This document shows, one piece after another, positions 18,901 to 30,900 of a stretch of 64,000 bases of DNA (position 1 is its first letter; each line of letters begins with the position of its first letter). This DNA is from Tubulanus polymorphus. Lineage: Eukaryota; Nemertea; Palaeonemertea; Tubulaniformes; Tubulanidae. Both the position numbers and the translations under genes were made by a program. The notes under the pieces are model-generated. The model was given only the letters and a program-made list of their open reading frames with translations, did no database searches and was not told the DNA's origin. The DNA lies in NCBI RefSeq assembly GCF_964204645.1, contig NC_134034.1:11494462-11558461 (forward strand), given 5' to 3'.

Positions 18901-21900
18901 GACATTGTTAAAGTCAAATACTACACGATAGGATTACGTATTTGTAAGTTAACCCCACTACTGTTGCCGATGCTTAATCCGCGGTTGTTCCGGTTTTCGA
19001 AATCCCGGCGCGCGCGTAACGGTGATATCCGCCAGATTATCCTCTCCGCGGATCGACTTCCGGCTAAACGACCTTCACCTCGACACTGCCGCGCGCTCGC
19101 GCGAGAGTTCGTCGATCGATAATAAGAGTCGCGTTCAGCGCAGTAAACGAATATCTTTGGCTTTGTAAAGCGAATAACCAGGTCCGTACGTCGACATTTT
19201 GTAATAATCAAATTACATGGTATTATAAAGCGAATTTATCCCGTCAAATCAGATTTGATTTTTAAAAATAAAATCGTATTTATCCTGGCATAATCGAGTT
19301 AGATTTGGTCAACTTTTTTGATTCAACTCGCGGCATCAAATTCGACTTGATTTGTCAAATCATCAAATCACATCACATGTGATTTCACACGATTTCAAGA
19401 TGGCGGACTGATAAGAGTTTCCGCCATTTGGCTCGCAGTGCGCAAACCCTAGGTTAGCCACCCCCATCATCGAAGCCCAACCTAGCTTTTCGAAAACTAG
19501 GCCGTTTCGAACAAATCGCGATTAGATGACACGTGGCTTACAAATTATTTATAGAAAATCGGAATCTGATTCGACAGGATGAATTCACCTCTAATCGATA
19601 GTAAACATTCAATGAATATTTATTCTTATGTTTTCACGCACAGTCGTTTCGGCTACAAACTCATCTAATCCTGTCTTATGCATGATGAATATTGTCCTTG
19701 ACCTTATTTCTTTCTCTAAAAGACCTCTGCCATTGAAAAGATGGCTGCCTCCATTAATCCACCTAACACGTCGTCGAATTGTGATTTGTTTGTGATTAGA
19801 TACTGCTTCATGGGCGATTTATGATGTCATAGGGTGATTAACTGGATGGAGCCATCTTTACTACTGAAACTTCAGGAAAAAGATGGCTTCGTCTACAAAT
19901 CCTCCCTTGACGTCATCATAAATTGCCCAGTATTCGATTAATTCAGAAAGCAATATCCCCAGTCTACGTTTTCAATAATGAATCGATATTGATGACGTCA
20001 TAGGGTGAATTGATGAAGGGATAGCCGTCAGTTCTGGACAGGTACGACGATAAGGCTATATTGTGTATTAGGTATTTTCTCGGGCCGTAAATATGAATGT
20101 TTCACGCCGCGCTACGACTTATAGAAACAACGGCGGATAAATAACTACGTCTACCACCACCAGGGGTCACCACCACCCGCACCTGACCAGTACCGATCAA
20201 TAACAATGCACGTACGTAAAGCTTGAGGTGTTAGTTAGAATGTGTAGTATTGATATCGTCTACCCCTGCCGCTACCTCGCCCCAAATTCTTCAAATCTTT
20301 GATTCGATTTGATTTTCTCATTATGGTAATTTTCAAAGTTGTATTAGTATATTACGAATCTGGACATTTGGGAAGGACAACAAGCTTGTGTGATAGCTTT
20401 TCTCACAGAGATAGCCTTTCTTACAGACAGTGTGATGTGGTTTCGTCGCCCTGAACAAAATCAAAACAGAAAACATTAGAGAAATAGTAGCAATAATAGA
20501 CGCATCATATAGTCGATAAAGCTTAAACAATCTTTTGTTTGAATCTTCAAGCGAAGCCCAGAATTGAAAGATCCATCGTTTTTTTTTTTCATATTCATTT
20601 GCATGTATATATTATGGTGGCTGATAAGGGCCATAGCGTAAAATTCCTGGTATGTAAATGAGGGCGCCAGAACGCCAGAACGCCAAAACGAAAAAAAACG
20701 TCCAATTTTCTCTGAAAGTTCGTTTTGGCGCGCCAAAACAAAGAAAATTCCGTTTTGGCGCCCCCGCCAAAACGAACTTTCATTTTGGCGCCCCCGCCAA
20801 AACGAACTTTCGTTTTGGCGCCCCCGCCAAAACAACGAAAAACGTCGAAATTTCTCTAAAAGTTCGTTTTGGCGCGCCAAAACAAAGAAAATTCCGTTTT
20901 GGCGCCCCCGCCAAAACGAACTTTCATTTTGGCGCCCCCGCCAAAACGAACTTTCGTTTTGGCGCCCCCGCCAAAACAACGAAAAACGTCGAAATTTCTC
21001 TAAAAGTTCGTTTTGGCGCGCCAAAACGGAAAATATTCCGTTTTGGCGCCCCCGCCAAAACGAACTTTCATTTTGGCGCCCCCGCCAAAACGAACTTTCG
21101 TTTTGGCGCCCCCGCCAAAACAACGAAAAACGTCGAAATTTCTCTAAAAGTTCGTTTTGGCGCGCCAAAACAAAGAAAATTCCGTTTTGGCGCCCCCGCC
21201 AAAACGAACTTTCATTTTGGCGCCCCCGCCAAAACGAACTTTCGTTTTGGCGCCCCCGCCAAAACAACGAAAAACGTCGAAATTTCTCTAAAAGTTCGTT
21301 TTGGCGCGCCAAAACGGAAAATATTCCGTTTTGGCGCCCCCGCCAAAACGAACTTTCATTTTGGCGCCCCCGCCAAAACGAACTTTCGTTTTGGCGCCCC
21401 CGCCAAAACAACGAAAAACGTCGAAATTTCTCTAAAAGTTCGTTTTGGCGCGCCAAAACAAAGAAAATTCCGTTTTGGCGCCCCCGCCAAAACGAACTTT
21501 CATTTTGGCGCCCCCGCCAAAACGAACTTTCGTTTTGGCGCCCCCGCCAAAACAACGAAAAACGTCGAAATTTCTCTAAAAGTTCGTTTTGGCGCGCCAA
21601 AACAAAGAAAATTCCGTTTTGGCGCCCCCGCCAAAACGAACTTTCATTTTGGCGCCCCCGCCAAAACGAACTTTCGTTTTGGCGCCCCCGCCAAAACAAC
21701 GAAAAACGTCGAAATTTCTCTAAAAGTTCGTTTTGGCGCGCCAAAACGGAGAATATTCCGTTTTGGCGCCCCCGCCAAAACGAACTTTCATTTTGGCGCC
21801 CCCGCCAAAACGAACTTTCGTTTTGGCGCCCCCGCCAAAACAACGAAAAACGTCGAAATTTCTCTAAAAGTTCGTTTTGGCGCGCCAAAACAAAGAAAAT

Positions 21901-27900: not shown

Positions 27901-30900
27901 AGCGTCCATACGGATGCAGCGAGGAACTGCTGAATGATGATATAAAGATGACGGTCAGAGTATTATCTTAATCGACGATTGATAACAGATAATTTTTCCC
28001 AGGCATAATTTCGGCACATTGTGTATTTATATATGACAATTCTATCTACCTTCAATGTCCTGAACGAAATCTAAAAAGTACCACGCAACCACCTCTGGGT
28101 CATTATTAGTATTTCCAACTCTTAACCAAAGGATTCGTCGGGAAAATCTTTTAAATATAGACTGTGTTTATGAACATGTTCGACAAACCAAATTCTGAAC
28201 TTATAGCAACTGCTGTTGATAGGTGGAAATAATATCTTTTAGGATATATCAATTATATATTATGTTTACCCATCTATACACCCATGAATCGGGAAACCAA
28301 AAGGCTTGAGCTTGTCATAACCATCGAGATGGACAAGATAATTGGGACCCTTGTTAAAGTAACGTCGTCGTCATAAAACTCCATGGGTCCTATTCTGTAC
28401 TCCTTCGAAGTCTAAATTCTGAAGGATATTGGAAACTAGAGACCTAGAAGTAAACAATCATATAACACATGAGTGAAGTGATCCAGATCTCATCTTAAAG
28501 GTCTTACATCAATCAAATACACATTTATACATATGCTGGCCGATTCGAAAGTTCTTTTTGTCAGGAGTAACAAAACTGACAATTCTTCAATTTGGCCAAA
28601 AAATATTTTTCGAGAAATTAAGTTTTTTTAGTTATGGCGTTTTGGTACTTTAGCGCCCTCATTTATCATGTCAGGAATTAACCGTGTAGGTAGCCACCCG
28701 ACCATACATCTTACCTAGGGGCTCTTATTCCGTAGCGTTGACGGAGACGTTGTGACATAGCACGATATCCCATGCAACATCCGCTGCCAGCAAGCTCAAC
28801 CTGTAATAATGCAGAGAACATAATCTTAAACCCAAAAGACATTTTCAATTTCTATCAGATATAAGCATCACTTCAAAAATTCGGATTACTTTCCTCGACT
28901 GCAGCGGTTACGTCATTGAGAACGTAATTGTTGTTTCTTTTCAAACCTAACCTATTCAATTGTCGTTTGAGGTGGCGTTCACTGAAAGTTTAAAATAAAC
29001 AAGACGGTTTGTGAACTAAACTACTATATCACATCATTATAAGGAGTAATATTGAATAAAAATGGCAGTGCCCATACGTAGCTGCAGACAATTAAAATCT
29101 ATTCTTAGACCATCTTGATGTAGGCCATGGAATTTATATATACGTACCTAATAGTTATTCCGAAGTTAGATAACATGGCAATCCTCATTTCTGCATTTGT
29201 GTACCCATCTGCAAAAAGCTTCCTAACAGTATCATCAACTAGAGGAATCTGTTAAGATCATCAACAAGATCAACAGCAAAATCGACCGTTGAGCAACTTG
29301 GTCTTTATTACGCAAAAGGATACAAGTCCGAACGGTGTCCATTATAATTAAGCGGTCGTGCACGAGTACGTATGCGTATGTACATAATTTGTATGTCAGC
29401 ATCTGGAGTAGACACGTTTCCGGGGCGCCAAAACGAAAGTTCGTTTTGGCGGGGGCGCCAAAATGAAAGTTCGTTTTGGCGGGGGCGCCAAAACGGAATT
29501 TTCTTTGTTTTGGCGCGCCAAAACGAACTTTTAGAGAAATTTCGACGTTTTTCGTTGTTTTGGCGGGGGCGCCAAAACGAAAGTTCGTTTTGGCGGGGGC
29601 GCCAAAATGAAAGTTCGTTTTGGCGGGGGCGCCAAAACGGAATATTCTCCGTTTTGGCGCGCCAAAACGAACTTTTAGAGAAATTTCGACGTTTTTCGTT
29701 GTTTTGGCGGGGGCGCCAAAACGAAAGTTCGTTTTGGCGGGGGCGCCAAAATGAAAGTTCGTTTTGGCGGGGGCGCCAAAACGGAATTTTCTTTGTTTTG
29801 GCGCGCCAAAACGAACTTTTAGAGAAATTTCGACGTTTTTCGTTGTTTTGGCGGGGGCGCCAAAACGAAAGTTCGTTTTGGCGGGGGCGCCAAAATGAAA
29901 GTTCGTTTTGGCGGGGGCGCCAAAACGGAATATTCTCCGTTTTGGCGCGCCAAAACGAACTTTTAGAGAAATTTCGACGTTTTTCGTTGTTTTGGCGGGG
30001 GCGCCAAAACGAAAGTTCGTTTTGGCGGGGGCGCCAAAATGAAAGTTCGTTTTGGCGGGGGCGCCAAAACGGAATTTTCTTTGTTTTGGCGCGCCAAAAC
30101 GAACTTTTAGAGAAATTTCGACGTTTTTCGTTGTTTTGGCGGGGGCGCCAAAACGAAAGTTCGTTTTGGCGGGGGCGCCAAAATGAAAGTTCGTTTTGGC
30201 GGGGGCGCCAAAACGGAATTTTCTTTGTTTTGGCGCCCCAAAACGAACTTTCAGAGAAAATTGGACGTTTTTTTTCGTTTTGGCGTTCTGGCGTTCTGGC
30301 GCCCTCATTTACATACCAGGAATTTTACGCTATGGCCCTTATCAGCCACCATAATATATCACAGGGGCCGTTGAATTAAGTATCCAGGACCCAGTTCCAC
30401 ATTTTGTGATAGAGAGTTAACTCTGAGTTAATGTTAGTTCATTTTCAATGCCTGAGTTAACTCAGAGTCAAACTCGGAACTGTGGAACTGGACCCAGCGC
30501 AACTTATTGCCGGATGTAGCGTAGATACCTTAATGTACAGTCCCTGTCTTTTTGATACAATCCACTATCTGCCGGTCTTTGTGGTCGATTTAAAATCAAA
30601 CCAACTTTTCATTTTGATATCACAAACTATTTACGTTCTCATCCTGTTTAATTTCTTGTGCGTATATGATTTTTTTCCGATTGAAGGGAACACTGGTAAG
30701 TGATGAAATTGTCTTAGTTTTATTTATCATATGCTTAAACCAAATATATGCATGCGAAACAAAGACCAGCGGATGAAAAGTTTTCCGACTTCGACTTTTT
30801 TCTATCAGAAATTAGCTTCTTATTCACATTCATCTTCGCTTGCCAGGGTTTGATTGCCGCCCGCCGAAGCTGACCTCATGTCAACACAAACCCCGGCAAG

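Follow-up and report, generated by a model that had tools for sequence, protein, structure and literature searches.

The window analyzed here is a 64,000-nucleotide stretch of the Tubulanus polymorphus genome (assembly GCF_964204645.1, contig NC_134034.1, positions 11,494,462 to 11,558,461 of the forward strand), which sits on contig C10 of a searched genome of 267.8 Mb and 77 contigs. A DNA transposon of the IS3EU type was identified at positions 20613-30353 of the window (9,741 bp) from its inverted arms and target site duplication, and it contains two genes, one for an integrase-like DDE transposase and one for a ubiquitin ligase with SAM and HECT domains. The termini of the element are TATGG..CCATA, and the 6-mer ATATAT flanks it on both sides as the target site duplication, with the left copy at 20607-20612 and the right copy at 30354-30359. 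Because ATATAT is palindromic here, the exact left border was taken from other copies and from empty sites. The inverted arms at 20607-21544 and 29422-30359, with the flanking 6-mer included, extend over 938 nt and are 100% complementary, a match far beyond chance. Arm comparison and tandem-repeat analysis resolved the terminal inverted repeats into arrays of a 144-bp unit, with 10.2 units in the left repeat (20613-22165, plus strand) and 6.0 units in the right repeat (29422-30353, minus strand). A long terminal repeat element was rejected, as no long direct repeats were found at the borders; no further reading frame of at least 100 amino acids in the unit was polyprotein-like, in an examination that did not include a search with reverse-transcriptase profiles. 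The right flank of the element, at about 30372-30509, belongs to a dispersed repeat with 70 matches in the genome, two of which are the element's own flanks, and tandem arrays of a 20-bp motif resembling this repeat lie at 33819-34205 and 48288-48584.

The HECT gene is encoded on the plus strand in three coding exons, which were defined by the gene model and a domain scan. The first exon (22842-22904) contains the start codon and, together with the second (23008-23152), encodes the SAM domain. The third (23595-25444), for which a structure model was also used, encodes a region with a GGGT motif (a label coined in this analysis), a linker, the HECT domain with Cys651, and the stop codon. The start codon immediately follows a splice-acceptor-like AG, and an untranslated first exon is therefore possible. 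The product has 685 amino acids, with domain matches to SAM_1 (E 7.9e-7) and HECT (E 1.1e-8). In the full protein, the best Pfam HECT stretch covered the C-lobe only (positions 211-293 of the 306 in the profile), and the coverage rose to positions 39-293 when residues 244-685 were scanned on their own. Because the full-protein match reached only the C-lobe, these residues were modeled together with 31 relatives. The resulting model from 32 aligned sequences had a mean predicted local distance difference test (pLDDT) score of 80.7, with a score of at least 90 for 300 of the 442 residues; an earlier model from four sequences had reached 38.8. The best match in the PDB was the HECT domain of HUWE1 (E 6.7e-13, 384 columns aligned), and a complete two-lobed HECT fold is predicted for the transposon protein.

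The catalytic cysteine of the C-lobe is residue 651, and its column in the alignment of 32 sequences, which includes that of the window, contained a cysteine in 28, a lysine in one, and a gap in three. A profile search gave 29 relatives besides the window's own protein, all uncharacterized, from fish, starfish, mussel, coral, and beetles, and the 31 aligned relatives were 24-48% identical to the HECT part of the window's protein. A SAM domain was below detection at E 0.01 in all 32 aligned sequences scanned alone, among which the window's entry is without its N-terminus.

The integrase gene is encoded on the minus strand, where nine coding exons were recognized in the gene model. The N-terminal coding exon is at 29148-29248, with the gene start further out, and the NCBI model starts just inside the terminal array. 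Exon 2 (28890-28981) has a 3' border that is out of phase with exon 3 (28715-28800), and exon 4 (28270-28443) contains the first catalytic D and an in-frame stop at 28371-28373; exons 2 and 4 were also examined in the copy alignment. These are followed by exon 5 (28050-28147), by exon 6 (27802-27929) and exon 7 (27579-27691), which supply the second catalytic D and the catalytic E according to the residue alignment, by exon 8 (27345-27496), and by the last exon with the stop codon (27050-27255). The integrase core matched rva_4 in the window (E 7.8e-39) and in the integrase protein P0005 (E 1.2e-38). The latter also had weak matches to the transposases of IS481 (E 7.7e-7) and IS3 (E 5.1e-5), which fall far short of the curated cut-offs; the same profile scan gave no IS481 or IS3 match for the integrase protein P0006. 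Among the best 120 of 3,095 relatives, the three residues of the D/D/E triad were conserved in 119, 119, and 120, respectively. A protein named for Tubulanus polymorphus matched the integrase at 99%. A PDB search with the integrase gave no match. Intron 3 of this gene contains, at 28546-28679, a degenerate stretch similar to the terminus of the element itself, which is 71-72% identical to the end regions of other copies, and the copy at C1:21.79 Mb is without 28481-28640.

An earlier note on this DNA had described a 9.7-kb unit with inverted termini at 20612..30354, inserted at a TATA site. The unit and its arms stand, while each border lies one base further in and the duplication consists of six bases, ATATAT, instead of TATA. 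The note had further described an rve-type integrase with a DDE triad, an intact gene for a SAM and HECT ligase with its catalytic cysteine at residue 651, and a convergent arrangement of the two genes, all of which were recovered in the present analysis. The in-frame stop of the integrase and the misfitting junction between exons 2 and 3 were absent from the note.

Further copies of the element were found with a 100-base terminus query (20607-20706), which gave at least 41 genome matches (40 of 517 candidates scored). All 31 places defined by these matches, including the window, were fetched as stretches of up to 10-15 kb, and their gene content was judged by tblastn at E 1e-5. Of the 31 places, 24 had the 40-base TATGG end, with at most one substitution, on both sides, and seven had it on a single side. 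Identical 6-mers flanked 19 of the 24 two-ended places, where L017, with three right-hand ends, was counted as identical; the 6-mers differed at L024, L028, L034, L035, and L039. At L028 (near 8599) and L039 (near 1036), the outer flank is the terminal sequence GTGGCTGATAAG or its complement, which probably reflects self-nesting. Both genes were present in five places spread over four chromosomes, namely the window and C1:4.41, C7:10.23, C1:21.79, and C4:19.50 Mb. A single end was found for the C4:19.50 Mb copy, and the other four have both ends and identical duplications. Within the fetched stretches, the remaining 26 places contained neither gene, and no place contained one gene alone. The gene-less places are short non-autonomous derivatives or spots where one end was found. 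Additionally, three non-coding internal stretches of the element were all retained at eight places in the genome, with other places partial or older (all first-look candidates scored). On C12, three damaged copies matching both genes occur at 6.505, 6.528, and 6.551 Mb with a spacing of 23 kb, apparently as a tandem segmental duplication containing the element.

For four copies, the two flanks were joined and searched against the genome. A continuous match was found for the copies on C7 and at C1:21.79 Mb, and none for the window copy and the C1:4.41 Mb copy. The aligned empty site of the C7 copy contains a single GAAACT and is ungapped, and that of the C1:21.79 Mb copy also has one 6-mer, TAAAAC, its only gap being one of 2 bases in an A run away from the joint. 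Since both aligned empty sites have a single 6-mer, the borders of the element are exact. Over 6.4-6.6 kb, five aligned copies are 0.08-0.31% apart and have therefore moved recently. It could be argued that two unrelated insertions are involved, in which a host HECT gene came to lie between the element ends by chance or one element is nested within another, and the family does appear to include nested copies, as indicated by the flanks of L028 and L039. However, the two-gene unit is repeated at five of the fetched places on four chromosomes, four of them with both ends and identical duplications, and the entire unit is missing from both aligned empty sites. This explanation is extremely improbable, and it is already refuted by these observations.

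The association of the two genes was then examined across the genome. In a search with HECT exon 3, all 61 candidates were scored, and the 57 matches fell into 35 places, of which 14 belonged to the same family and 21 were diverged. Exon 3 was wholly open at six of the 14 same-family places and damaged or partial at eight. In a search with the integrase P0005, 105 of 186 candidates were scored, and 66 rows were used that formed 49 clusters among the matches listed. Because 81 of the integrase candidates were unscored, some HECT places counted as free of an integrase may have one. At all 14 same-family HECT places and at eight of the 21 diverged ones, where the pairs are known from gene matches alone, an integrase match lay no more than 10 kb away in a tail-to-tail orientation. 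All 22 pairs were convergent. When the 21 diverged places were placed randomly in 2,000 trials, with the sizes of two contigs guessed, a mean of 0.09 and a maximum of two were paired. An explanation by chance neighbors was rejected on the basis of the copies, the empty sites, and the 22 convergent pairs.

In the eight diverged pairs, the identity was 24-53% for HECT and 33-73% for the integrase. The HECT match at C4:18.05 has 24% identity with a weak E value (1.1e-4) and contains stops, as does the HECT match at C3:13.01. The pairs at C2:9.57, C6:17.98, and C8:2.43 match alike and appear to form one family, so that the eight pairs would represent about six lineages. No integrase match within 10 kb was found among the matches listed for 13 of the 21 diverged HECT places. 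A comparison by eye revealed no contig common to the HECT relatives and the best 120 integrase relatives, and a scan of viral contigs for a relative gave none.

That both genes belong to the mobile unit, as the earlier note had supposed, is borne out by the places holding both genes or neither, by the empty sites, and by the pairing at every same-family HECT place. Similarly, the empty-site comparison, with one aligned site for each of two copies, confirmed the borders and the duplication. The note had named ends lacking the HECT gene as evidence against the composite; such ends do occur, at 26 of the 31 places, yet the integrase is missing there too. It had also named HECT genes of this type lying mostly outside such ends, and 13 of the 21 diverged HECT places lack a listed integrase match within 10 kb.

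From sequence comparison and structure prediction, the element is very probably a recently active cut-and-paste transposon that belongs to the IS3EU/GingerRoot superfamily and encodes an IS3/IS481-like DDE transposase and a SAM-HECT ligase, the latter presumably being retained as a working E3 ligase that aids transposition. Use of the HECT gene is argued because its frame is open across all three exons in all five aligned copies, compared with three of five for the integrase, and because the gene pair recurs. The recurrence of the pair elsewhere in the genome gives a hint that the ligase is of importance to elements of this kind, and the term "cargo" may understate a gene that recurs with its partner in diverged form, as seen from gene matches alone.

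Transposons can carry host genes, and HECT could be a passenger of this kind, a host gene caught once by the transposon family that hitch-hikes with no role in transposition. Among the matches listed, 27 of the 49 integrase clusters (by subtraction) have no HECT match within 10 kb, as would be expected of a dispensable passenger, and selection on HECT is not measurable between copies that are so close to one another. A single capture, however, would not yield a tail-to-tail pair at eight diverged places of about six probable lineages. Furthermore, HECT is open in every aligned copy, and of the 29 aligned sequences with a residue at the position of Cys651, among them that of the window, 28 have a cysteine. 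A passenger role is thus considered unlikely.

Besides the integrase clusters without a nearby HECT match, several observations weigh against a retained, working ligase in an active element. A same-family integrase relic at C6:13.17 Mb has no HECT match, and at C3:15.406, C4:17.377, and C7:11.942 Mb there are intronless frames, open for 400-401 codons, that share 40% identity with the integrase and have no HECT match nearby. The clusters without a nearby HECT indicate that the superfamily can do without this gene, and the intronless frames may represent a second IS3EU-like lineage, perhaps active. In an older copy at C6:13.98 Mb (L045), HECT is reduced to its last part. Variable sites among the five copies number 7 of 2,058 in HECT, 6 of 1,150 in the integrase, and 16 of 3,355 in non-coding sequence, which is too few to gauge selection on HECT. 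Additionally, the window's own integrase has the in-frame stop in exon 4, and the phase of exons 2 and 3 is incompatible with a GT donor in four aligned copies, which leaves their joint unsettled; hence the window copy may not move itself.

For a cut-and-paste transposon with an active ligase, the following mechanism is proposed. Both genes are read inward from the terminal repeat arrays and meet tail to tail. The transposase would bind the repeated terminal units, with the arrays serving as multiple binding sites, cut at TATGG/CCATA, and join the ends to the strands of the target at a distance of 6 bp; cut and paste with a 6-bp stagger follows from the ends, the duplications, and the empty sites. 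Short gene-less copies would be mobilized in trans. The HECT protein would act as a working E3 ligase, retained by the element as an aid to transposition.

Among the possible roles of the ligase, the likeliest is that it tags a host factor involved in limiting or repairing transposition, a tentative assignment that may well prove wrong. Next in rank, and rather doubtful, is a main action on the element's own transposase, in which HECT would ubiquitinate the integrase or its strand-transfer complex so as to time its removal from the DNA and keep the copy number bounded. The two genes being kept together would agree with such a target, but many integrase clusters of the genome are without a nearby HECT match. 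The role of mere passenger ranks last. The earlier note had proposed that the ligase may manipulate host protein turnover or stabilize the integrase. Diverged gene pairs in one genome together with several recent stop-free copies make the role of the ligase testable.

A transposon with its own ubiquitin ligase would provide a direct route for mobile DNA to act on host proteins. It would have a parallel in the TET/JBP enzymes that fungal transposons carry, for which a part in escape from DNA methylation has been proposed (PMC12730594). It would also offer an explanation for uncharacterized animal HECT genes and a caution for annotators, as some of these may be mobile elements. In a broader and speculative extension, which is somewhat less probable than its opposite, an animal-wide IS3EU lineage would consist of a transposase and a SAM-HECT module kept for hundreds of millions of years, with the ligase disarming a host limit, and the uncharacterized HECT proteins of fish, echinoderms, molluscs, corals, and beetles would mostly be transposon genes or domesticated ones.

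Elsewhere in the window, an open frame of 221 amino acids at 978-1643 is cysteine-rich and may be an exon from a gene for a secreted or membrane protein.

The earlier note had suggested that the composite may be undescribed as a named element. Compared with published descriptions, its termini, 6-bp duplications, and transposase features appear to fit the IS3EU/GingerRoot superfamily. According to their description, IS3EU elements have TA..TA ends, mostly create 6-bp duplications, and encode a transposase close to those of IS3 and IS481 (PMC10045372), and those of rust fungi are reported to have ends of TAYGG..CCRTA and to carry TET/JBP and alpha-kinase genes (PMC12730594). The present element shares with the superfamily as described there the TA..TA ends, the 6-bp duplications, and an integrase-like, IS3/IS481-related DDE transposase without an HHCC zinc motif (PMC12730594). 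By eye, no such motif was present before the catalytic core of P0005, where the only two cysteines are adjacent and not in a CxxC arrangement. Unlike the described members, the element bears a SAM-HECT ligase, and its terminal repeats consist of about 0.9-1.5 kb of 144-bp tandem units.

A full-text literature search for HECT with IS3EU, with Repbase and most subscription papers outside its range, found no paper. Likewise, no HECT gene in an IS3EU element was present among the listed titles and abstract starts of the related literature searches, no HECT was present in the main text of PMC4255032, and the words HECT and ubiquitin had zero occurrences in the main text of PMC12730594. The HECT-bearing IS3EU element is probably new, and IS3EU elements carrying other extra genes are already known from fungi. 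It resembles the TET/JBP- and alpha-kinase-bearing IS3EU elements described from rust fungi and Tuber in carrying extra enzyme genes (PMC12730594), and the transposase and alpha-kinase genes of fungal IS3EU are reported in opposite orientations, as is the gene pair here (PMC12730594). In contrast to the HECT ligase of the present element, the extra genes described for the fungal elements encode a dioxygenase and a kinase, and the host is a fungus (PMC12730594).

A link between an integrase-type DDE transposase and an enzyme of the ubiquitin or SUMO pathway is shared with Ginger1, whose transposases are described as bearing OTU or Ulp1 domains and for which the authors proposed that the ubiquitin pathway plays a part in transposition (PMC2836005). 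However, the Ginger1 enzyme as described strips off ubiquitin or SUMO and forms one of the domains within the transposase (PMC2836005), whereas the ligase here is encoded by a separate gene, and Ginger1 duplications are given as 4 bp (PMC10045372) instead of 6 bp. An assignment to Ginger1 was rejected on the basis of the 6-bp duplications and the absence of an OTU or Ulp1 domain in P0005 at E 0.01. The transposon protein resembles HECT-type E3 ligases such as HUWE1, UBR5, and NEDD4 in its predicted two-lobed fold and catalytic cysteine. It differs from them in its identity of 12-19% across the 50 listed structural matches, in the SAM domain and GGGT-motif region ahead of the HECT domain, and in being borne by a transposon. 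Its sequence relatives are the uncharacterized HECT proteins of fish, starfish, mussel, coral, and beetles, which are known from protein sequences alone.

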